Of a stretch of 64,000 nt of DNA, positions 24,648 to 35,652 are shown piece by piece. A program made the translations under genes and the position numbers. The notes under the pieces are model-generated. The model saw nothing but the letters and a program-made list of their open reading frames with translations. It was not told where the DNA came from and made no database searches. Within the stretch, counting starts at the first letter, position 1; each line of letters opens with the position of its first letter. Where the stretch lies: positions 3,410,001-3,474,000 of the forward strand of contig NZ_CP139779.1 of NCBI RefSeq assembly GCF_034421375.1. The letters run 5' to 3'. Source of the DNA: Microbacterium invictum (GTDB lineage: Bacteria > Actinomycetota > Actinomycetes > Actinomycetales > Microbacteriaceae).

Positions 24648-25743
24648 AGAGATTCACCCCCGTCCCAATCGCGAACGCGGCGAGGATCACGACGACGACC
24701 ACCCCGACGAGCGCGCGGGTGGTGAAGGTGGTGCGCATCAGGGCGAGCATCTTCACGTCGACGAGGGGCCCGACGAGCAGAAAGGCGACGAGCGAACCCG
24801 GCGTGAAGGTCGAGGCGAACGACAGCGCGAAAAACGAGTCGACGTTCGAGCAGATCGACACCACCATCGCCAGGGCGATCATCGCCACGATCGACAGCGC
24901 CGGATTCGACCCGATCGCCAGCAGGACGTCGCGCGGAATCAGCACCTGCACGGCTCCGGCGATCGCCGAACCGATGATGAGCGCCGGCATGACGGCGCGC
25001 AGCTCGATGACGAACTGCGCGAGGCTGCGTCGTCCGCGCTCACCGAGCGCTCCAGCCGAACCCGCCTCGACCGGACCCCGCGCGAGCGCCAGCTCGCACG
25101 TGTCGCGGAACCGATCGGTGAGCAGCGCGTCGGGATGCGGGTGACGGCTGTACAGCCAGCCGATGAGGTTCGCGATGAGATACCCGCCGATGAGGCGGAC
25201 GACAAGGATCCCGTCGTCGAACCCGAACGCGGCGTGCGTGGTGATGATGACGATCGGGTTCACGATCGGCGCGGCGATGAGGAAGGTCAGGGTCTCGGAC
25301 ACGCTGAATCCCCGCATGAGCAGACCCCGTGCGAAGGGCACGTTGCCGCACTCGCACACCGGGATGAGCATGCCGAGGAGCGAGAGCACCGCTCGGCGCG
25401 CCCAGGCTCGCCGTGGCATCCATCTCTCGATCAGACCGGGCGGCACCCACACCTGCACCGCGATCGAGAGCACCACCCCGAGGACGACGAACGGCAGCGA
25501 CTCGATGAGAACGCTGACGGCGAGGGTGAGCCCGTCCTGCGCCCGTGTAGGCAGCGGGTCGGGAAAGATCGCAGGCGCGAGTGCGTCGACGAGGAACAGC
25601 GCGACGATGACGGCGGCGCCGATGCCGAGGGCCATCAGGGCGCGCGCCGCCGACGACGGCCGCGACCCCGGGGGGGTCACGGTGCGATCGCGTTGCTCGA
25701 GCGGAGCGACGCGTGGGGCCGGATCAGTCCGGGTCACGCTCAC
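24640..25743 (-). CDS. UPF0718/YraQ-type permease
   Basis: This polytopic protein has 8-10 helices and family signatures PVCECGNVPFARGLLMRGF and SNVDSFFALSFASTFTPGSL. Homologues include ArsP and YraQ permeases thought to move metals or metalloids. With the TIGR03943 partner directly downstream and zur directly upstream, zinc or another divalent metal is the likely substrate. The frame is open far into zur, but GTG 25743 (VSVTRTDPAP) or GTG 25737 gives only a 14-20 nt overlap with zur and a normal N-terminus. About 367 residues. Confidence 0.82.
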   Translation of the reverse strand: MSVTRTDPAPRVAPLEQRDRTVTPPGSRPSSAARALMALGIGAAVIVALFLVDALAPAIFPDPLPTRAQDGLTLAVSVLIESLPFVVLGVVLSIAVQVWVPPGLIERWMPRRAWARRAVLSLLGMLIPVCECGNVPFARGLLMRGFSVSETLTFLIAAPIVNPIVIITTHAAFGFDDGILVVRLIGGYLIANLIGWLYSRHPHPDALLTDRFRDTCELALARGPVEAGSAGALGERGRRSLAQFVIELRAVMPALIIGSAIAGAVQVLIPRDVLLAIGSNPALSIVAMIALAMVVSICSNVDSFFALSFASTFTPGSLVAFLLVGPLVDVKMLALMRTTFTTRALVGVVVVVILAAFAIGTGVNLFA

Positions 25744-26134
25744 CGGCTCCGGCCGTGCAGGCGGAGCAGTATCCGAAGATGTCGACGATGTGCTCGGCCT
25801 GACTGAATCCGTGGGCGCTGGCGGTGCGCCGGGCCCAGTCCTCGACATCCGTCGCTTCGATCTCGACGGTCTTGCCGCAGGTGCGGCAGATCAGGTGATG
25901 GTGGTGACCGGCCGAGATGCAGGCGCGGTAGAGGCTCTCGCCCTCGGGGCTCTGCAGAGAATCGGCCTCGCCGTTGGCGGCGAGGCCGGCGAGGGCCCGG
26001 TAGACGGTGGCCAGACCGATCCCGGTGTTCTCGTCGCGGAGGGTGGCGTGCAGCGACTGGGCGCTGACGAAGCCGCGCGCGCCGGCGAGCGCTTCGCGCA
26101 CGCGTTCGCGCTGCCACGTGTTCCGCTGGGCCAT
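25724..26134 (-). CDS. zur: Zinc uptake regulator of the Fur family
   Basis: The 136-residue Fur-family repressor has a winged helix (RVREALAGARGFVSAQSLHA, GIGLATVYRALAGLA) and a metal-binding half with GHHHHLICRTCGKTVEIEA and IFGYCSACTAG. The two CxxC pairs (Cys83/86, Cys123/126) form the structural zinc site; the HHHH run and His115 can supply the sensing site. Placement between znuB and metal permease genes, and two TGAKAA-N3-TTMTCA boxes nearby, mark it as Zur rather than Fur. It starts 2 nt after the znuB stop, so it is likely repressed by its own product through the box upstream of znuA. Confidence 0.93.
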   Translation of the reverse strand: MAQRNTWQRERVREALAGARGFVSAQSLHATLRDENTGIGLATVYRALAGLAANGEADSLQSPEGESLYRACISAGHHHHLICRTCGKTVEIEATDVEDWARRTASAHGFSQAEHIVDIFGYCSACTAGAGERDPD

Positions 26135-26136
26135 GA

Positions 26137-27045
26137 TCAGGAGTTTACCGAGGCGCCCTGAACCGCCGCTGGACGCCCCTCACCGCCGCGCACCCGGGTC
26201 ACCCGGCCCTGTCGGGCGCCGACGACGCGGCAGACGAGGTAGATCACGAACGAGATCGTGGTGATGTAGGGGCTGACCGGAAGGGTGCCGGCGATGGCGA
26301 GGAGGATGCCGCCGACGGCGGACACGAAGCCGAACGCGGCGGCCAGGAGCGGCACCGACAGCGGCCCGTGGGCCACGCGCATCGCTGCGGCGGCCGGCGT
26401 CACGAGGAGCGCCATCACGAGGAGCGCGCCGATGATGTGCACGGCGACGGCGACGATGAGGCCGAGCAGGATCATGAACAGCAGCGACACCGTCGTGGTC
26501 GGCACGCCCCGCGCCGCGGCCGACTGCGGGTCGAGCGAGTCGAAGCGCAGCGGACGCCAGATCACCAGCATCCCGAGCAGTACGACGGCGCTGATGCCGA
26601 TGAGCCACCCGAGCTGTCCGGTCTGCACCGACACGATCTGCCCGGTCAGCAGGCTGAAGCGGTTGGCGCTGCGCCCGTCGTAGAGCGACAGGAAGAGGAT
26701 GCCGAGGCCGAGCCCGAACGGCATCAGCACGCCGATGATCGAGTTGCGGTCTCGGGCGCGTGCGCCCAGCCACCCGATGAGGGCGGCGGCGATGAGAGAT
26801 CCGAAGATCGATCCGGTCACGACGTCGACGCCGATGAGGAGGGCGGCCGCGGCCCCCGCGAAGGACAGCTCGCTGATGCCGTGCACCGCGAAGGCCATGT
26901 CGCGCTGCATGACGAAGACACCCACGAGGCCGCCGACGAGGCCGAGCGCGGCGCCGGCCCACACCGCGTTCGAAACGAGCCCGAGCAGCTGGCCGTAGAC
27001 CGGGAGGCCGCCGAACATGGCCTCCCAGATCGCGTCCCAGCTCAC
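26137..27045 (-). CDS. znuB: Zinc ABC transporter permease
   Basis: The 302-residue ABC-3 family permease has about 8-9 helices and family stretches VGVFVMQRDMAFAVHGISE, LLTGQIVSVQTGQLGWL and IIGALLVMALLVTPAAAAMR. It forms the membrane channel for zinc delivered by ZnuA. The GTG start overlaps the znuC stop as GTGA. zur follows after 2 nt. Confidence 0.94.
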   Translation of the reverse strand: MSWDAIWEAMFGGLPVYGQLLGLVSNAVWAGAALGLVGGLVGVFVMQRDMAFAVHGISELSFAGAAAALLIGVDVVTGSIFGSLIAAALIGWLGARARDRNSIIGVLMPFGLGLGILFLSLYDGRSANRFSLLTGQIVSVQTGQLGWLIGISAVVLLGMLVIWRPLRFDSLDPQSAAARGVPTTTVSLLFMILLGLIVAVAVHIIGALLVMALLVTPAAAAMRVAHGPLSVPLLAAAFGFVSAVGGILLAIAGTLPVSPYITTISFVIYLVCRVVGARQGRVTRVRGGEGRPAAVQGASVNS

Positions 27046-27860
27046 GAGTGATCCTCGTCGTGGTGATGATGGTGCGCGTCTTCCGCGTCGGGCGCGCCGA
27101 CCACGACGAGACGGTCGCCGGCGCGGAGGACGAAGACGGGGGTGCCGTACAGCTCGGTCAGGACCTCGGAGCGCAGCACCTCGTCAGGGCGTCCCAGGGT
27201 GAACCGGCCCCCCGCGATGTAGAGGATCCGGTCGACCTTGCCCAGCAAGGGGTTGATGTCATGCGTCACGAGCAGCACCGCGGCCTCGCGCTGACGGCGG
27301 TGGCGGTCGATCAGGTCGACCACGGCGCGCTGGTTCGCCAGGTCGAGGCTCGTCAGCGGCTCATCGCAGAGAAGCAGCCGCGGGTCGTCGGCGAGGGCCT
27401 GCCCGATGCGCAGGCGCTGCTGCTCACCGCCGGAGAGCACCCCCACCGGCCGATCGGCGAACGCGCGCGCGCCGACCTCGTCGATGAGCTTCTCCACCCG
27501 CGCGGCGTCGCGGCGGCGCGGGATGGGCAGTCCGAAGCGGTGGCCGTTGACTCCGAGCGCGACGACGTCGCGGCCCCGCAGGGCGACGTCGCGCGGCAGC
27601 GGCCGCGACTGCGGGATGTATCCGACGCGGCGGTTGCCGCCGGCGCGCACCGGCTGACCCAGCACCGACAGCGACCCCGAGCTCAGCGACTGCAGGCCCA
27701 GGATCGCCTGGAGGAGGGTCGTCTTCCCCGACCCGCTCGGGCCGAGCACAGCGATGAGCTCGCCCGGCGCGACCGTGAGATCGAGCCCCGACCACAGCTC
27801 GCGGCCCGAGCGCCGCAGCGCGGCATCCCGGATCTCGAGTGCGGGCCCCGTGGCGGTCAC
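27042..27860 (-). CDS. znuC: Zinc ABC transporter ATPase
   Basis: After the start at GTG 27860, Walker A is GPSGSGKTT (about residues 40-48), the signature VLSGGEQQR, Walker B LLLCDEPLTSLD and the switch His in VTHDIN. The C-terminus DAHHHHHDEDHS is His-rich and may contact zinc. The start overlaps the znuA stop as GTGA; the longer frame would run into znuA and is rejected. It powers the ZnuB channel. Confidence 0.93.
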   Translation of the reverse strand: MTATGPALEIRDAALRRSGRELWSGLDLTVAPGELIAVLGPSGSGKTTLLQAILGLQSLSSGSLSVLGQPVRAGGNRRVGYIPQSRPLPRDVALRGRDVVALGVNGHRFGLPIPRRRDAARVEKLIDEVGARAFADRPVGVLSGGEQQRLRIGQALADDPRLLLCDEPLTSLDLANQRAVVDLIDRHRRQREAAVLLVTHDINPLLGKVDRILYIAGGRFTLGRPDEVLRSEVLTELYGTPVFVLRAGDRLVVVGAPDAEDAHHHHHDEDHS

Positions 27861-28936
27861 TCCGCCAGCGCGTCGCTCAGCGCGGTGATGTTCGCCTGCA
27901 TCCACGAGATGTAAGTCTGGCCCTCCGGCAGCGTTTCCGAAAACGCGATCACCGGGATGCCGAGGGTCTCGGCCTCGCTGACGACCTGCTCGGTCTCGGC
28001 GCCGCCGGTCTGGGTGTTCGTGATCACGACCCGCACGTCGTCGGCCCGCAGTAGCTCGAGCGACTCCAGCAGCGTCGCGGGCGGAACATCCTGCCCCTCC
28101 TCGACCGCCTCGCTGAAGGCATCGGGGGTGACGTTCTCGAGGCCCGCCGCCGCGGCCAGGTAGACTGGCACCGGCTCGGTGACGAAGACGTGCGCACCCT
28201 GCTGGTCGGCGGCGATCTCGGCGAGCGAGGACTCCACATCCTCGATGTCGGCGGCGAAGGACTCGAGGTTCGCCGCGAACGCGTCGGCGTCATCCGGACG
28301 GAGCTCCGTCAGCTCCTCCGCGATCGACTCGGCGACGTGCACGATGGTGTGCGGGTCGTACCAGACGTGCTCGTTGAAGCCCTCGATGTGAGCGTGGTCG
28401 TGCTCCTCGCCCTCCTCGTGCGCGTGCTCCTCGCCCTCCTCGTGCGCGTGCTCCTCGCCCTCCTCGTGCGCGTGCTCTTCCTCGGCGGCGCCCTCCGCCG
28501 CAGCCGTCTCGCCTGCGGCCTCGTCGGAGTGCTCCTCGGCACCGGGGAAGTCGTGCGAGTACTCCACGGCGGTGATCACGTGCGCCTCGCTGCCGCTGGA
28601 CTCGATGAGAGCGTCGATGAACCCGTCGTATCCGCCGCCGTTCTCGACGATCAGCTCGGCGTTCGAGATCGCGAGGGTGTCCTGCGCGCTCGGCTCGTAG
28701 GAGTGGGGGTCCTGCGCCGCGGAGGTCACGATCGACGTCACCGCGACGGCGTCGCCGCCGATCTCCTCGACGATCTGCCCGTAGACGTTGGTGGAGGCCA
28801 CGACCGGGACGGCGTCACCCGAGGCGGCGCCATCCGACGTGGACGACGCGGATCCGGCGGCGGTGGCACAGCCGGCGAGGGTGAGGACGGATGCCGCGGT
28901 GACGGCGAAGAGGGGAACGATTCGGGTCGCACGCAT
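27857..28936 (-). CDS. znuA: Zinc-binding lipoprotein of the ZnuABC importer, His-rich loop type
   Basis: The 359-residue protein has a lipobox (LTLAGC, Cys23), the cluster A-1 fold, the ligand motif DPHSYEPS (His78), a His/Glu-rich loop at residues 154-183 (EEHAHEEGEEHAHEEG repeats), FNEHVWYDPHT, and a C-terminal half with ITNTQTGG. Loop-bearing ZnuA proteins can acquire zinc without a chaperone. The ATG at 28936 is 6 nt after TAGACT (28948-28943), so the message is probably leaderless, and a Zur box lies directly upstream. Confidence 0.95.
   Translation of the reverse strand: MRATRIVPLFAVTAASVLTLAGCATAAGSASSTSDGAASGDAVPVVASTNVYGQIVEEIGGDAVAVTSIVTSAAQDPHSYEPSAQDTLAISNAELIVENGGGYDGFIDALIESSGSEAHVITAVEYSHDFPGAEEHSDEAAGETAAAEGAAEEEHAHEEGEEHAHEEGEEHAHEEGEEHDHAHIEGFNEHVWYDPHTIVHVAESIAEELTELRPDDADAFAANLESFAADIEDVESSLAEIAADQQGAHVFVTEPVPVYLAAAAGLENVTPDAFSEAVEEGQDVPPATLLESLELLRADDVRVVITNTQTGGAETEQVVSEAETLGIPVIAFSETLPEGQTYISWMQANITALSDALAE
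28400..28471. repeat. 24-bp tandem repeat, 3 identical units, encoding the ZnuA His loop
   Basis: Three identical 24-bp units run from 28400 to 28471, followed by a partial fourth. Each encodes HEEGEEHA-type residues in frame, so unit gain or loss would change the number of zinc-binding histidines without breaking the gene. Confidence 0.9.
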
Positions 28937-28954
28937 ACCGGCAGTCTAACGGAT

Positions 28955-28969
28955 TGATAATCGTTATCA
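28955..28969. promoter_or_regulatory. Zur-type box controlling znuA
   Basis: TGATAA-TCG-TTATCA is a perfect 6-3-6 palindrome in AT-rich sequence, 18 bp upstream of znuA and 6 bp upstream of its -10 box TAGACT (28948-28943). It fits the known actinobacterial Zur consensus. Its last three bases (28967-28969) are also the stop codon of the upstream aztA gene. Confidence 0.88.
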
Positions 28970-29635
28970 GTAATCGACGGAGACCTGCCCGTCGCGGAGC
29001 CCGACGATCCGATCGGCGAGCCCACGCACCGCCGGGTCGTGCGAGACGCAGACCACCGCGGCTCCCCGGAGGGACTCCTCGCGGAGGATCTGTCGGATGC
29101 GCGTCGCGCTGGCGGTATCGAGCCCGGTCGTCGGCTCGTCGAGGAGCATCATCCCCGGTCGCCGCACCAGCGCCTGCGCGAGAAGGGCGCGCTGCCGCTG
29201 TCCACCCGACACCTCGGCGAGCGGAGCACGGGCGAGTGCCTCGATGTCGAGACGCCTCAGAGCGTCGGTCACCGCCCGACGCCGCTGCACCCGAGACGTT
29301 CCCCGGCGGAGGCCGAGTGCGACCGTCTCGGCGACGGTGATCGGAAGCAAGGGTGTCACCGCGACGGATTGCGGCATATAGGCCAGTACCGCGCATCCGG
29401 GCACCTGTCGGACACCGACGGACGGCGACCGCGCCCCACTCAGCACCTCGAGGAGTGTCGACTTCCCGGCCCCGTTCGGTCCCGTGATGACCGTCAGCTC
29501 GCCACCGGAGATCTGGACCGAGACATCCGCGAGCACCGCACGCCGCCCGAAGACGACGCCCACCCGATCCAGTCGGGCGGCCGCATACGGTCGCCCCGCG
29601 GCATCCCCCGGCGCACCGGTCTCGGTCGTTCTCAT
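28967..29635 (-). CDS. aztA: Zinc ABC transporter ATPase, Azt type
   Basis: The 222-residue ATPase has Walker A TGPNGAGKST (residues 51-60), signature VSGGQRQRALLAQAL, Walker B MMLLDEPTTGLD and VSHDPAV. It is shorter than ZnuC and lacks the His tail. It belongs to the Azt importer by position: aztB, an aztD-like gene, aztC and aztD lie divergently on the other strand. The ATG at 29635 is the first start in frame after a stretch without start codons; the strong GGAGG lies 16 nt upstream, longer than usual. Its 3' end touches the znuA Zur box. Confidence 0.88.
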   Translation of the reverse strand: MRTTETGAPGDAAGRPYAAARLDRVGVVFGRRAVLADVSVQISGGELTVITGPNGAGKSTLLEVLSGARSPSVGVRQVPGCAVLAYMPQSVAVTPLLPITVAETVALGLRRGTSRVQRRRAVTDALRRLDIEALARAPLAEVSGGQRQRALLAQALVRRPGMMLLDEPTTGLDTASATRIRQILREESLRGAAVVCVSHDPAVRGLADRIVGLRDGQVSVDY

Positions 29636-29660: not shown

Positions 29661-29689
29661 TTGAGAATGATTCTCATTAAGCCTACGGT
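29661..29689 (+). promoter_or_regulatory. Predicted aztB promoter, leaderless
   Basis: TTGAGA (29661-29666), 17-nt spacer, TACGGT (29684-29689), then 6 nt to the aztB ATG at 29696. The -35 box shares five bases with the Zur-type palindrome, a direct basis for repression. Confidence 0.68.
29662..29676. promoter_or_regulatory. Zur-type box between aztA and aztB
   Basis: TGAGAA-TGA-TTCTCA is a perfect 6-3-6 palindrome with the same pattern as the znuA box (TGAKAA-N3-TTMTCA). It lies between the divergent aztA and aztB and overlaps the aztB -35 box, so Zur with zinc should shut both directions. Confidence 0.88.
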
Positions 29690-29695
29690 GGCGAC

Positions 29696-30577
29696 ATGAC
29701 CCTCCTCGTCGACGCCCTGTTTGCACCCTTCGCGTTGGAGTTCGTGCAGCGGGCTCTGCTCGGCGGAGTGCTCGTGGCGGTGCTCTGCGGGGTCGTGGGC
29801 ACCTGGGTCGTCATCCGCGGCATGGCCTTCCTCGGCGAAGCGCTGGGGCACGGGATGCTTCCCGGGGTCGCCCTCGCCACCGTGCTCGGCGTCCCCGTGC
29901 TCGTGGGCGGGGCCATCGGCGCGACGGCCATGAGCGTCGGCGTGTCGGCCCTGCAGCGTCGGGGACGTCTGTCGTACGACACCAGCATCGGTCTGCTGTT
30001 CGTCGCGATGCTGTCACTCGGTGTCATCGTCATCTCGTTCTCGGGGAACTTCGCCACCGACGCCACCGCCATCCTCTTCGGAGACATCCTGGCCATCTCC
30101 GCGGCGGACCTCGTCGTGCTCGCCGCCGCGTGCGGGACGGGTGTCCTGGTGGCCGCCCTCGCCCATCGCCGGCTCGTGGCCCTCGCGCTCGACACACGGA
30201 TCGCGGCCGTGCTGGGTTTTCGGCCCCGTCTCGCCCAGGCCGTCCTCGTGGGGCTCGTCACGCTCGCCGTCGTCGCCTCGTACCAGGCTGTCGGATCGCT
30301 GCTGGTCGTCGGTCTCCTGCTCGCGCCTGCGGTGGCCGCCGGCGGGTGGACCGCCCGGATCTCGAGCCGGATGCTGCTGGCCGCCGCCTTCGGAATCGCG
30401 GCCGTGTTCACGGGCCTTCTCGCCTCGTGGCACTTCGCCTCCGCTGCCGGGGCGTCGGTCGCCGCGGCAGCCATCGCCCTGGCCGGGGGGTCGACTCTCC
30501 TCCGCGCCGCTGTCGTCGCTCGCGGACGTCGGCGGCGCGGAGCACCCGAGGGGCTCTCCGCGCCCGCCGTCGCCTGA
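29696..30577 (+). CDS. aztB: Zinc ABC transporter permease, Azt type
   Basis: The 293-residue ABC-3 family permease has about 8 helices: GTWVVIRGMAFLGEALGHGM, SYDTSIGLLFVAMLSLGVI and GSLLVVGLLLAPAVAAGGWT. The pattern MAFLGEALGHG is typical of this family. It should form the channel served by AztC and AztA. The ATG lies 6 nt after the -10 box, so translation is probably leaderless. The aztD-like gene follows after 30 nt with a ribosome site of its own. Confidence 0.92.
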   Translation: MTLLVDALFAPFALEFVQRALLGGVLVAVLCGVVGTWVVIRGMAFLGEALGHGMLPGVALATVLGVPVLVGGAIGATAMSVGVSALQRRGRLSYDTSIGLLFVAMLSLGVIVISFSGNFATDATAILFGDILAISAADLVVLAAACGTGVLVAALAHRRLVALALDTRIAAVLGFRPRLAQAVLVGLVTLAVVASYQAVGSLLVVGLLLAPAVAAGGWTARISSRMLLAAAFGIAAVFTGLLASWHFASAAGASVAAAAIALAGGSTLLRAAVVARGRRRRGAPEGLSAPAVA

Positions 30578-30607: not shown

Positions 30608-31852
30608 ATGCGTTCCCGCGTCTTCGCCCTCATCGTCTCCGCCCTCGCCGTCGGACTCACCGCGTGCGCCGGTACCCCGGCGACCGCCCCGTCATCCGAA
30701 GCCTCCGCCGCCGACGACGATCACGGCGAGCGCGCCGGCGCCACCGAGCTCACCGAACCCCCACTGGGGCTGACGATGATCGACGCGGCCGGCACCGTGA
30801 CCCACCTCGACCTGTGGGACGAGAACATCTCGGACCTCGGTGCGATCGCCCCGCCCCGCAGCGTCGCGAGCGACGGCCGCTACCTCTTCGCCGAGACCGA
30901 CACCGGAGTTCAGATCGTCGACTCGGGCGTCTGGACCTGGGACCACGTCGACCACTTCCACTACTACCGCGCGTCCCCCGACATCCTCGGAACCGTCACG
31001 GGGCAGGGCCCGGCGCGCGTGGCGACGACGAACCAGTCGATGTCGGGGAGCACCGGGATCTTCTTCGAGGGCTCGGGGGAAGCGGTGCTCCTGGACACCG
31101 AGGCTCTCTCGCGCGGTGAACTGACGGAGCGTTTCCGGCTCGAGGTCATGCCGCACGAGGGCCTGGTGGTCCCCGTCGGATCGTTCGCCGTGGTCACCGA
31201 GGCGGGGCCGGACGGTCGTGCCGACCGTGTCGCCGCGTACTCGGGCGACGGCGAGCCGGTGGGAACGCAGGCGGCGTGCCCCGACGCCCGCGGCACGATC
31301 ACGACCCGCGTCGGCGCCGTCATCGGATGCCGCGACGCGGCCCTCCTGGCCGAGGTCACCGACGGCGAGCTCACGCTTTCGCGGATCCCGTACCCGCCCG
31401 GCACGACAGCAGCCCCCGCGGAGTCGTTCCACAATCGCGAGGGGCGTCCGACCGTGGCGGGTCTCGCTGGCGAGTCCGGCACCGACGGGATCTGGCTTCT
31501 GAACACCCGCGCGCAGACCTGGACGCTCCTGCCCTCGCCCGAGCCGTTGGTCACCGTCACCGCGGTCGACGACGACGCCGACACCGTGCTCGCCCTGACC
31601 AGGGAAGGGCGTCTGATCGTGCTCGACGGTACCGACGGCGCCGTGCGGGCCCGGACCGAGCCGCTCGTCGCCGCCTCGATCGACGACGAGGGCGCCCGGA
31701 TCCCGGCGATCGTCGCCGACGCGCAACGGGCCTATGTGTCCGGCCCCCGGGAGCAGAAGCTCTTCGAGATCGACTTCGCCGACGATGCCCGCATCGCGCG
31801 CACCTTCGACACGGCTGCGCCGTTCGGGTTCACCGCGGGGACCGGGCGATGA
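30608..31852 (+). CDS. AztD-like lipoprotein paralogue with altered metal ligands
   Basis: The 414-residue lipoprotein (lipobox VGLTAC, Cys20) is a beta-propeller related to AztD. Shared landmarks are DTEALSRGELTERF opposite FDTADLAASEGLPDV, the ACPDARG/IGC pair opposite QCPGVHG/FGC, and MPHEGLVVPVG opposite AHHGVSIVLED. Of the His residues that stand out in the true AztD here (124, 128, 168, 169, 213), only the equivalent of 168 is kept. A new cluster HVDHFHYY occupies residues 113-120, and the N-terminus has DDDHG. It lies between aztB and aztC and overlaps aztC as ATGA. A second periplasmic zinc chaperone or sensor is likely but unproven. Confidence 0.72.
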   Translation: MRSRVFALIVSALAVGLTACAGTPATAPSSEASAADDDHGERAGATELTEPPLGLTMIDAAGTVTHLDLWDENISDLGAIAPPRSVASDGRYLFAETDTGVQIVDSGVWTWDHVDHFHYYRASPDILGTVTGQGPARVATTNQSMSGSTGIFFEGSGEAVLLDTEALSRGELTERFRLEVMPHEGLVVPVGSFAVVTEAGPDGRADRVAAYSGDGEPVGTQAACPDARGTITTRVGAVIGCRDAALLAEVTDGELTLSRIPYPPGTTAAPAESFHNREGRPTVAGLAGESGTDGIWLLNTRAQTWTLLPSPEPLVTVTAVDDDADTVLALTREGRLIVLDGTDGAVRARTEPLVAASIDDEGARIPAIVADAQRAYVSGPREQKLFEIDFADDARIARTFDTAAPFGFTAGTGR

Positions 31853-32781
31853 ACGCGCGTCGGACGCCGCGAGGGCGGCTCGTGGCGGCACTCCTCGCGG
31901 CAGGGTTGACGGCCTCGGCGCTCGCCGGGTGCGCAGCGGTCGGTGACGGGCGTCCGCTCGTCGTGGTGACCACGAACATCCTCGGCGACGTCGTCGAAGA
32001 GCTCGTCGGCGACGAGGCGGAGGTCCTCACGTTGATGAAGCCCAACGCCGATCCGCACTCGTTCGAGATCTCGGCGCAGGAGGCGGCGCGCCTGCGCAGC
32101 GCCGACCTGATCGTCTCGAACGGGCTCGGCCTCGAGGAGGGTCTGCAGCAGCACCTCGATGCGGCAGCGGCCGACGGCGTCGCCGCTTTCGTCGCCGGCG
32201 ACGTGATCGACGTCCTCGCCTACCGCGACGGCGACGCGGCCGGCAACCCGGACTCGCACTTCTGGACCGATCCCGCGCGGATGCGTGGCGTGGTGGATGC
32301 ACTGGAGCCGGTGCTGTCCGACCTCGACGGTGTCGCTTCGTCCGAGGTGACCGCACGCACCACGGAATACCGGTCCGCGATCGACGAGCTCGACGCCGAG
32401 ATGATGCGGGCCTTCGCAGCGATCCCCGCCGACCGGAGGGCTCTGGTGACCAACCACCATGTGTTCGGCTACCTCGCCGACCGCTTCGACTTCGAGGTCG
32501 TGGGTGCGGTCATCCCCGGGGGCACGACCCTCGCCGCCCCCTCCGCGTCCGATCTGGCCGACCTCGTCACGGCGATCGAGCGAACGGGTGTGCCGGCGAT
32601 CTTCGCCGAGTCGTCCTCGCCCGATCGACTCGTCCGCGCGCTCGCCGAGGAAGCCGACGTCCATGTCGATGTCGTGGAGCTGTTCACCGAGTCGCTCACC
32701 GACGCCGAGGGCGGCGCTCCGGACTACCTGACCATGATGCGCGTCAACACCGAGCGCATCTCCACCGGACTCTCCCGCTGA
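31849..32781 (+). CDS. aztC: Zinc-binding lipoprotein AztC (no His-rich loop)
   Basis: The 310-residue cluster A-1 substrate-binding protein has a lipobox ALAGC (Cys28), first ligand NADPHSFE (His70), then DSHFWTDPARM, TNHHVFGYLADRF and a late AIFAESSSP with the Asp/Glu ligand region. The flexible His-rich loop of ZnuA is absent, the feature that defines AztC-type proteins which receive zinc from AztD. The ATG at 31849 overlaps the preceding stop as ATGA; the open frame upstream is a shadow of the aztD-like gene. Confidence 0.93.
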   Translation: MNARRTPRGRLVAALLAAGLTASALAGCAAVGDGRPLVVVTTNILGDVVEELVGDEAEVLTLMKPNADPHSFEISAQEAARLRSADLIVSNGLGLEEGLQQHLDAAAADGVAAFVAGDVIDVLAYRDGDAAGNPDSHFWTDPARMRGVVDALEPVLSDLDGVASSEVTARTTEYRSAIDELDAEMMRAFAAIPADRRALVTNHHVFGYLADRFDFEVVGAVIPGGTTLAAPSASDLADLVTAIERTGVPAIFAESSSPDRLVRALAEEADVHVDVVELFTESLTDAEGGAPDYLTMMRVNTERISTGLSR

Positions 32782-32810
32782 GGGTCCACCCCATCAAGAA
32801 GAGAGGCATC

Positions 32811-34022
32811 ATGCGCACTCCCCCTTTGCGCCGCGCGGGTATCACCGCGCTCACCATCGGAGCGGTCGTGACACTGGCCGCGTGCTCGTCGGACGCCGGA
32901 ACCGGTTCCGCCGCACCGGCGACACCCGACTCCCCGTCCGCCTCCCCCGGTCCTCGTGTCGCGGTCGGTTATGAGGGCGGGGTCGTCGTCCTCGACGGTG
33001 ACACTCTCGAGCCGGTCGCCGAATTCGACTCCGAGGAGTTCATCCGCCTGAACCCGGCCGGCGACGACCGGCACGTGATGGTGACGATGAGCGAGGGCTT
33101 CCAGGTGCTCGACGCCGCCGCGGGGACAGCGGAGGAGCCCGAGCTCACCGATCTCGTGTTCGAGGCCGACAAACCCGGCCACGTCGTCCGGCACGCCGGC
33201 AAGACGATCCTGTACGCCGACGGCACGAGCGACACCACCATCTTCGACACCGCCGACCTCGCGGCATCCGAGGGTCTTCCCGACGTGGAGACGATCGAGG
33301 GTGTGGAAGCGCATCACGGTGTGTCGATCGTCCTCGAGGACGGGACCTTCCTCACCACCGTCGGCAACGCCGACGGCCGCAGCGGCATCACCGCCCAGGA
33401 CGCAGGCGGAGCGGTCATCGCCGAGACCGATCAGTGCCCGGGCGTGCACGGCGAAGGGACCGCGAAAGATGAGGTCGTCGTGTTCGGGTGCGAGAACGGC
33501 GCGCTGATCTACGACGGCGGCGAGATCGTCAAGCTCGATTCGCCGGATCAGCCCTACGGCCGTATCGGGAACGCGTTCACGACCGACACCAGCCCGATCG
33601 TGCTGACGGACTACAACAACGACCCCGACGCAGAGGGGTATCTGCTGGACGCCGTCACCCTCGTCGACACGCACGCGCGGACCCTCGAGGTCGTCGAGAT
33701 GCCGGAGGGCGCGGAGTACACCTTCCGCGACCTCGCTCGCGGCCCTGGCGACCTCGGATACATCCTCGCCTCGGACGGCTCGATCCACGTCCTCGACCCG
33801 ATCTCGGGTGAGTTCGTCGACGAGTTCCCGGTGATCCAGGCATGGGAGGGCCCGGCGGAGTGGCAGGACCCGCACCCCGCCATCCTCGTGTCGGGCGACA
33901 TCGCCTACGTGACCGAGCCCGCCGCGAATGCGGTGCACGCGGTCAACCTCACCACGGGCGAGATCGTCGCGACCGGCAAGCTCGAGGTCACCCCGAACGA
34001 GCTGGCCGTCGCCGCCGGCTGA
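32811..34022 (+). CDS. aztD: Zinc metallochaperone AztD
   Basis: The 403-residue lipoprotein (lipobox TLAAC, Cys25) has the AztD beta-propeller with KPGHVVRHAGKT (His124, His128), VEAHHGVS (His168, His169), QCPGVHGEG (His213) and FGCENGAL; Cys209 and Cys227 can form a disulfide. AztD binds zinc outside the cytoplasmic membrane and hands it to AztC. GAGAGG lies 6 nt upstream of the ATG. It is the last gene of the Azt plus-strand operon, ended by a strong terminator. Confidence 0.93.
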   Translation: MRTPPLRRAGITALTIGAVVTLAACSSDAGTGSAAPATPDSPSASPGPRVAVGYEGGVVVLDGDTLEPVAEFDSEEFIRLNPAGDDRHVMVTMSEGFQVLDAAAGTAEEPELTDLVFEADKPGHVVRHAGKTILYADGTSDTTIFDTADLAASEGLPDVETIEGVEAHHGVSIVLEDGTFLTTVGNADGRSGITAQDAGGAVIAETDQCPGVHGEGTAKDEVVVFGCENGALIYDGGEIVKLDSPDQPYGRIGNAFTTDTSPIVLTDYNNDPDAEGYLLDAVTLVDTHARTLEVVEMPEGAEYTFRDLARGPGDLGYILASDGSIHVLDPISGEFVDEFPVIQAWEGPAEWQDPHPAILVSGDIAYVTEPAANAVHAVNLTTGEIVATGKLEVTPNELAVAAG

Positions 34023-34083: not shown

Positions 34084-35652
34084 TCAGTGGCGGTGTCCGG
34101 CGGTCGCGTCGGGCGGAAGGGTCGTGATCTCGGTGTCGGAACCCGGCTCCACGACGAGGAACTGGGCCATCATCCCGGCATCTTCGTGCCGCAGGAGATG
34201 GCAGTGGAGCATGAGCGGATGACTCGCGTCGGCGTGCTCGAAGCGGAGCACCATCTCCACCTCGACCCCGGGTGGGAGGTACAGAGTGTCTTTGGGTCCC
34301 GCAACGGCGGCCGGCGGCGCCTCGCCGCCGTAGCGGGTGACCTCGAAGTGGACACCGTGCACGTGGAAGTTGTGGGGGTAGGGCATGTCGTTGCGCACCC
34401 GCCAGCGTTCGATCGTGCCGCGCTGCACGACCGCATCGACCCGCTCCATCGACATCGCCTGACCGTTGATCTCGGTGCCGTCGAGCACCCACTCCCGCGT
34501 CATGACCGCATCGGCGGCGTCGAGCGGCTCGCGGGGTGCGAGCACCGGCGGAATCGTCCCGCGGCTCGCCAGGTCGTCGGCGGCCCGGAGCTCGAGGACG
34601 TCGAAGCGGTCGGAGCCGCCGTTGCCTCCTCCGAAGACCGGCAGGACTCCGCCGAGGTCGGGATCCTCGCTGCGTAGCACGGTGGTCTCCCCCGCCCTCA
34701 TCCTCACGAGGATCTCCGCCCGCTCCCCGGGCGAGAGCCGCAGGCTCTCGGTCTCCCGGGGCGCGGGCAGCAGTCCACCGTCGGTGGCGATGTGCGAGAA
34801 GGCCCGTCCGTCATCGAATCCGAAGGCGTAGACGCGCGCGGTCGACGCGTTGACGAGCCGCAGCCGCACCACGTCCGTCGCCACCGCCAGGTACGGCGCG
34901 AGCGTCCCGTTCACCAGGATCTCGTCGCCGAGGTGACCGGATGATCCGCCGTCGCGCTGACCCAGCGCGCCGGTCTCGGCGTCGAGCGCGACGTCTTGCA
35001 CGATGACGGGGATGTCGTCGACCCCGTACTCGGACGGGAGGGGCAGACCCGCCGAAAGCGCGTCGTCGATCAGGAACAGCCCGGCGAGCCCCCGTCGCAC
35101 GTGGTCCTCGGTCGCGCCGTGGGGATGCGGGTGGTACCAGAGCGTCGCGGCCTCCTGGTCGATGGTCCACTGCGGAGACCAGGTGCCGCCGGGGTCGACG
35201 GGCTGGTGGACGCCGCCATCCATCTCACCGGACAGCCGCATCCCGTGCCAGTGGACGCTCGTCGTGACATCCAGCCCGTTCGTGACATCGATGCGCACGC
35301 GGTCGTTCTGCGTGGCGCGGAGGGTGGGCCCGAGGTAGGTCCCGTTGAAGCCCCACGTGGGGGTCTCGAGCCCGTCGATGAACGCCGTCGAGCCGGCTCG
35401 GGCATCGAGCGCGAACACCTTGGTGCCGTCGGGAGCGATGACGGGCTCGAGGAGCTCGGGGATCGCCAGGGGCGTGTCGAACTCGACGGCGCCGACCGTG
35501 TCGACGGCCGGGGCGTTGCCGATGCCCACGGCGAAGGCGGTGCCGACGCCGACGGCGGAGACGACCAGGGTGGCGACGATGCCGATGACGACCTTCGGAC
35601 GGCGGAGGCGAAGACGGGCGGGCCGATCGGGGCGAGGAGGGAGGGCGGACAT
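34084..35652 (-). CDS. Multicopper oxidase (CueO/bilirubin-oxidase-like)
   Basis: The 522-residue secreted oxidase has one N-terminal helix (VVIGIVATLVVSAVGVGTAF) and all copper motifs: SVHWHGMRL, LWYHPHPHG, HNFHVHGVHF and HPLMLHCHLLRHEDAGMM. Three cupredoxin domains are covered. Likely roles are copper(I) or phenolic oxidation at the cell surface. ATG 35652 is chosen as the first start giving a basic signal peptide; the very long open frame upstream runs antisense-like through the E2 gene and is a shadow. C-terminal end AGHRH adds two His. Confidence 0.92.
   Translation of the reverse strand: MSALPPRPDRPARLRLRRPKVVIGIVATLVVSAVGVGTAFAVGIGNAPAVDTVGAVEFDTPLAIPELLEPVIAPDGTKVFALDARAGSTAFIDGLETPTWGFNGTYLGPTLRATQNDRVRIDVTNGLDVTTSVHWHGMRLSGEMDGGVHQPVDPGGTWSPQWTIDQEAATLWYHPHPHGATEDHVRRGLAGLFLIDDALSAGLPLPSEYGVDDIPVIVQDVALDAETGALGQRDGGSSGHLGDEILVNGTLAPYLAVATDVVRLRLVNASTARVYAFGFDDGRAFSHIATDGGLLPAPRETESLRLSPGERAEILVRMRAGETTVLRSEDPDLGGVLPVFGGGNGGSDRFDVLELRAADDLASRGTIPPVLAPREPLDAADAVMTREWVLDGTEINGQAMSMERVDAVVQRGTIERWRVRNDMPYPHNFHVHGVHFEVTRYGGEAPPAAVAGPKDTLYLPPGVEVEMVLRFEHADASHPLMLHCHLLRHEDAGMMAQFLVVEPGSDTEITTLPPDATAGHRH

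Follow-up and report, generated by a model that had tools for sequence, protein, structure and literature searches.

A Microbacterium azt locus in which the two zinc sites of AztD appear to sit on two co-encoded proteins

Why should a single azt locus encode two proteins of the AztD family? The question is raised by the window considered here (the whole stretch of 64,000 nucleotides analysed from Microbacterium invictum), whose azt locus, with gene order aztA< >aztB-X-aztC-aztD, holds two AztD-family lipoproteins: AztD itself and a second protein that I will call X. Their features are collected in Table 1, and the open reading frames lie where the original prediction had put them. The AztABCD gene set is present, with aztB, aztC, and aztD above the curated NCBIfam cut-offs and aztA under its own. 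The start of aztA, the ATG at 29635, was picked from the sequence, the listed open reading frame extending to 29851. The stop codon of X overlaps the ATG of aztC. Within the window's own genome, the AztD model finds matches in just two places, X and aztD.

Table 1 Features of the azt locus and of the metal sites encoded within it. Positions are those of the window.
Feature	Position	Strand	Evidence
aztA, ATPase	28967..29635	-	NCBIfam NF040873 193 bits, below cut-off 220
Zur-like palindrome TGAGAATGATTCTCA	29662..29676	.	pattern search, 0 expected in shuffles
aztB, permease	29696..30577	+	NF040871 331 bits, above cut-off 280
X, lipoprotein of the AztD family carrying site 2 alone	30608..31852	+	
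Glu47 codon of X	30746..30748	+	retained by X and by two-site proteins, lost from AztDs with site 1 alone
X residues 113-118, HVDHFH, site-2 hairpin	30944..30961	+	lines up with site 2 in the AztDs of Paracoccus and Citrobacter
aztC, solute-binding lipoprotein without His loop	31849..32781	+	NF040870 380 bits, above cut-off 350
aztD, lipoprotein of the AztD family carrying site 1 alone	32811..34022	+	NF038015 455 bits, above cut-off 400
AztD residues 102-109, site-2 hairpin absent here	33114..33137	+	alignment and model
AztD His124 codon, site 1 (= Paracoccus His124)	33180..33182	+	alignment
AztD His169 codon, site 1 (= Paracoccus His167)	33315..33317	+	alignment
AztD His213 codon, site 1 (= Paracoccus His218)	33447..33449	+	alignment

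The gap of 60 bases that separates the divergent aztA and aztB contains the palindrome of Table 1, which resembles the Zur motif described for C. glutamicum; there, the putative secreted protein cg0040, whose gene adjoins those of a permease and a binding protein, is given as a Zur target (PMC2823685). By inference from sequence, the azt locus would be controlled by Zur. The window holds a second zinc-type operon, at 25724-28969 on the minus strand, with a Zur-like box at 28955-28969. It encodes a ZnuA-like protein in which His-rich EEGEEHAH units recur; its other three products, an ABC ATPase whose tail is His-rich, a permease, and a regulator of the Fur/Zur type, are named from sequence. On the other side, a gene at 34084-35650 (minus strand) adjoins aztD and, from its HWHG and HCH motifs, presumably encodes a protein like the multicopper oxidases.

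The presence of two AztD-family paralogues in one azt locus, as originally proposed, is upheld by the scores against the AztD model NF038015: 455 bits for AztD, and 79 bits (E 2e-22) for X. Since the latter is under the curated cut-off of 400 bits, X is filed as an AztD-family paralogue and not as an AztD. The alignment of X with the window AztD is weak (24% over 239 columns). By sequence, the solved proteins nearest to X are the AztDs 6cmk and 6ck1, matched by a 27-row profile with E values of 1e-20 and 4e-21, and the alignment of X with AztD spans the whole propeller and sets the His cluster of X on site 2. Structure prediction had been suggested as a check, with an unrelated propeller family as the possible outcome for X; that family is not borne out and is rejected, because in the structure comparison the AztD chains come out far ahead of every other row. 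The predicted models of X and AztD both match the AztD fold, far above other propellers, and both proteins can be assigned that fold on the strength of prediction. Each has a lipobox-type Cys (C20 in X, C25 in AztD) that is invariant in the relatives compared.

AztDs have been solved from Paracoccus denitrificans and Citrobacter koseri (PDB 6ck1, 6cmk, 6n01; PMC6689063), and the window pair is like them in its propeller fold, disulphide Cys pair, extracellular location, and azt gene neighbourhood. The solved AztDs carry both zinc sites on one protein; the window has site 2 on X and site 1 on AztD. Site 2 of the solved proteins is placed on the N- and C-terminal strands and on a hairpin of blade 2, and in Paracoccus it consists of His99, His102, and Asp104 (PMC6689063). 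The segment HVDHFH of X aligns with HDHGDH of both solved AztDs, that is, with site 2, so that by alignment the site-2 ligands are present in X as His113, His116, and His118. The third hairpin ligand is Asp in the solved AztDs, whereas it is His in X and in two-site actinobacterial proteins. The original prediction was that the cluster HVDHFHYY had no counterpart in AztD and amounted to a rebuilt metal site. The first claim is correct for the window's AztD and incorrect for the solved ones, and the second, a new site in X, is rejected, the cluster aligning with the canonical site 2.

It was rightly predicted that His124, His169, and His213 of AztD are replaced in X. The corresponding residues of X are R137, E184, and R228, and in the column of AztD His128, also named in the prediction, the common residues of X include no His. 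At its end (AAPFGFTAGTGR), X has no equivalent of the C-terminal His408 of Paracoccus AztD. A C-terminal His as a general fourth ligand of X is rejected, as the last 12 residues hold a His in just 21 of 110 rows.

The three site-1 ligands are all present by alignment in the window AztD, which had been taken for a normal member of its family. It is not, for the site-2 hairpin is missing from the alignment, and the model passes from strand 96-101 directly to strand 111-118. By its sequence, the window AztD, rather than X, is the protein with the unusual loss. With site 2 only in X and site 1 only in AztD, the two sites of one canonical AztD are, by sequence, divided over two co-encoded proteins. 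Both belong to the AztD family, yet each alone lacks one of the sites. The interpretation first placed on the locus is therefore sustained as to two paralogues and not as to a rebuilt site.

To judge how common this division is, matches to the AztD model were sought and found in genomes of the genus (73 of 149), family (64 of 249), class (92 of 394), and phylum (20 of 396), sets that overlap. X matches were found in 75 of the 149 genomes of the genus. From these, 180 loci were taken and the family proteins within them typed by site residues; ten X-positive genomes of the genus, the single-match genome G828, and some two-match genomes lie outside the typed sample. The 295 sequences typed (counting the two solved fragments and the pair from the window) comprise 114 site-2-only, 112 site-1-only, and 63 two-site proteins, and six typed as N (fragments or odd). 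Rows shorter than 300 residues entered neither the tree nor the conservation counts. One of 286 full-length rows (from L256) fits none of the three types, and invariance within a type is partly circular, since types are defined by site residues.

Judged in this way, the split is widespread in actinobacteria. Among 175 typed genomes (the window's included), 106 have a site-1-only together with a site-2-only protein, 57 have a two-site protein and no site-1-only AztD, and three (G556, G624, G766) combine a two-site with a site-1-only protein. A site-2-only protein occurs alone in five: in G645, G103, and G023 the gene lies at a contig end, in G871 aztC is shortened and aztD absent from the locus, and in G683 the protein falls outside the X clade described below. 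Of the remainder, two have fragments, one (G156) has the gene in two pieces, and one (G1045) has a lone site-1-only AztD. Viewed from the side of AztD, 110 genomes have a site-1-only protein, accompanied by a site-2-only protein in 106, by a two-site protein in three, and by neither in one. A search of 69 genomes with an X profile found an X-clade protein in none of the 57 two-site genomes lacking a site-1-only AztD, and gave no match in G1045. Proteins such as those of L096, L102, and L108, single two-site AztDs of actinobacteria, are of the same family with both sites conserved, and their genomes, unlike that of the window, are without X; they likely represent the ancestral state.

In the best 80 of 583 named loci, the partner of X is site-1-only in all 80; as these loci were found through the X motif itself, they are informative only for the state of the partner and for site 1 of X. 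They come from genera that include Microbacterium, Planctomonas, Agromyces, Clavibacter, Rathayibacter, Cryobacterium, Nocardioides, Rhodococcoides, Dietzia, Sinomonas, Arthrobacter, and Leucobacter. One locus (L338) resembles that of Arthrobacter in a record titled Vibrio cholerae strain 35D; the azt locus is actinobacterial, and the assembly is probably mislabelled or mixed.

The plain order aztA< >aztB >X >aztC >aztD was found in 68 of 177 loci with a typed protein. In 12 of the 177 (L106, L107, L109-L118; 12 kb taken), X and AztD occur but azt transporter genes do not; the genomes concerned all lack an AztC above the cut-off, so that AztC cannot be the recipient there. Beside the X-AztD pair of two of these loci lies a protein with an HELAH motif, which I take to be thermolysin-like (L106 3805-4869, L111 7004-8065). 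The two-site protein stands alone, outside an azt operon, in 52 of the 61 loci having one, and the split and the azt operon are therefore partly confounded. In L250, from G556, the site-1-only AztD has a GHDAGHDAGHDAGHD tract near its N-terminus, and the two-site protein is elsewhere in the same genome.

Only five columns are conserved in at least 75% of X and of two-site proteins and in less than 25% of site-1-only proteins: Glu47, His113, Asp115, His116, and His118. Glu47 is present in 97%, 90%, and 5% of the three types, respectively, and lies within the predicted N-terminal strand 46-48 of X. In the solved AztDs, site 2 involves the N- and C-terminal strands in addition to the blade-2 hairpin, which makes Glu47 a candidate ligand or support of site 2. 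His39 of X is present in 102 of 110 rows.

In a FastTree from which the site columns had been removed, X forms a single clade of 108 rows with support 1.0. Every one of the 108 has HHH at site 2, and at site 1 no His is found in 103 and one His in five. The sister of the clade is the first protein of L264 (G766), in which both sites are present. The order at this locus is aztB, the two-site protein, aztC, and a site-1-only AztD. It is an intermediate, the sister of X keeping both sites and the neighbouring AztD already without site 2. Next nearest to X are the two-site AztDs that stand as the single AztD in azt loci from other phylum groups (L102-L105). Site-2-only proteins with Asp as third ligand occur outside the X clade in L212 (G683) and L262 (G707), possibly through a separate loss of site 1.

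The site-1-only AztDs arise within a two-site lineage other than that of X. Parsimony needs four changes for the history of site 2, and the starred branches force at least two. An AU test (p 0.0126), whose hypotheses were framed after a FastTree had been viewed, rejects a history in which all site-1-only proteins trace back to a single loss of site 2; for the two large site-1-only clades alone, a common origin is not rejected (p 0.0975). From the rejection and the forced branches, site 2 was apparently lost repeatedly, at least twice.

The window AztC had been said to be without a His loop, and comparison with other AztCs indeed shows no His-rich loop in it. In L102-L105, where AztC has a single two-site AztD as its neighbour, it is without one as well, and loss of the loop is consequently rejected as a mark of the split; L102 does hold one further AztC-like protein with a His-rich loop. 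The AztC of Paracoccus is reported to need its three-His loop to take zinc from AztD.

What might each protein do? According to the Paracoccus study, site 2 is the only source of the zinc that AztC receives: a mutant lacking site 1 (ΔS1) transfers like the wild type and one lacking site 2 (ΔS2) does not, and storage is proposed as one role of site 1 (PMC6689063). In ligands kept, X resembles ΔS1 and the window AztD ΔS2, although the mutants were made in the laboratory and the window pair is natural, diverged, and co-encoded. The same source gives the site ligands, except for His408, as conserved in at least 95% of 577 AztDs, a set that therefore describes two-site proteins (PMC6689063). Accessory extracellular zinc proteins likewise serve a cluster A-I solute-binding protein in the cases of ZinT with ZnuA and PhtD with AdcAII; they are said to be unrelated to AztD by homology (PMC6689063), and they are not a split pair of one family.

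I consider it rather probable that a two-site chaperone has here been divided into a delivery protein, X, comparable to ΔS1, and a store at the pore site, AztD, comparable to ΔS2. When zinc is scarce, Zur would free both transcription units; X would take up zinc at the cell surface on its exposed hairpin (site 2) and hand it to AztC where AztC is present; and AztD would keep or buffer zinc in its pore (site 1). The split, its conservation, the co-occurrence of the two proteins, and the intermediate form are read directly from sequence; what I infer is zinc binding by each protein, X as donor, AztD as store, and control by Zur. The role of donor would fall to X because published transfer is from site 2 only (PMC6689063), and the HHH conserved in all 108 X-clade rows while site 1 decayed indicates selection for metal binding in X. 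Against the division into delivery and store stand the window AztC, without the loop that Paracoccus AztC needs, the 12 X-AztD pairs in genomes without AztC above the cut-off, the lone site-1-only AztD of G1045 with no X match, and the two-site AztDs found mostly outside azt operons, with the confounding this brings. The two large site-1-only clades, moreover, may share one origin.

The persistence of paired X and AztD at the 12 loci without azt transporter genes would suit a relay, in which X would insert its hairpin into the AztD pore, take over the zinc held at site 1, and pass this on to AztC or another recipient, the two proteins forming an obligate two-step chain. I regard this as unlikely. 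It can call upon the Citrobacter crystal, in which a molecule inserts its site-2 extension into the pore of its neighbour and a shared site results, and upon a window AztC with no loop to fill the pore of AztD; but the crystal contact was judged an artefact by its authors, no transfer from site-1-only to site-2-only AztD was seen with the Paracoccus mutants (PMC6689063), and the loopless AztCs beside single two-site AztDs make the loss of the loop not specific to the pair. If X and AztD did not cooperate at all, one feeding AztC and the other buffering zinc or supplying it to other extracellular zinc proteins, each would be useful alone. The lone AztD of G1045, the stand-alone pairs in genomes without AztC above the cut-off, and the storage proposed for site 1 (PMC6689063) agree with that idea. 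It is nonetheless quite improbable, with a site-2-only protein in 106 of the 110 site-1-only genomes, the two genes adjacent or nearly so in the tallied loci, and site 2 apparently lost repeatedly beside a second protein that keeps it. Finally, X is the more divergent protein, with conserved residues of its own (e.g., Arg277 and Glu387) that are absent from AztD, as might be expected if it were no longer a donor and retained the old fold and motif as a sensor, an inhibitor, or a binding partner of the transporter. The invariance of HHH across the X clade despite the decay of site 1 makes this highly implausible.

Whichever account holds, the split makes testable the role of site 1, which is unexplained in ordinary AztD, and it lets each site be deleted, purified, and assayed alone in organisms where the split is the wild type. 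Were the relay true, site 1 would be the donor site in a chain between proteins, with another recipient where AztC is absent. No description of a two-AztD system was found in the literature searched (full text of open-licence papers). Proteins named AztD by NCBIfam in split genomes are those without the transfer site, and among 120 of 866 relatives the source names that appear give X, the likely donor, as 'ABC transporter' or 'hypothetical protein'. One protein of 676 residues (P0080) joins an ABC-3 permease domain to an X-like part, possibly as an AztB-X fusion or an artefact of gene calling.
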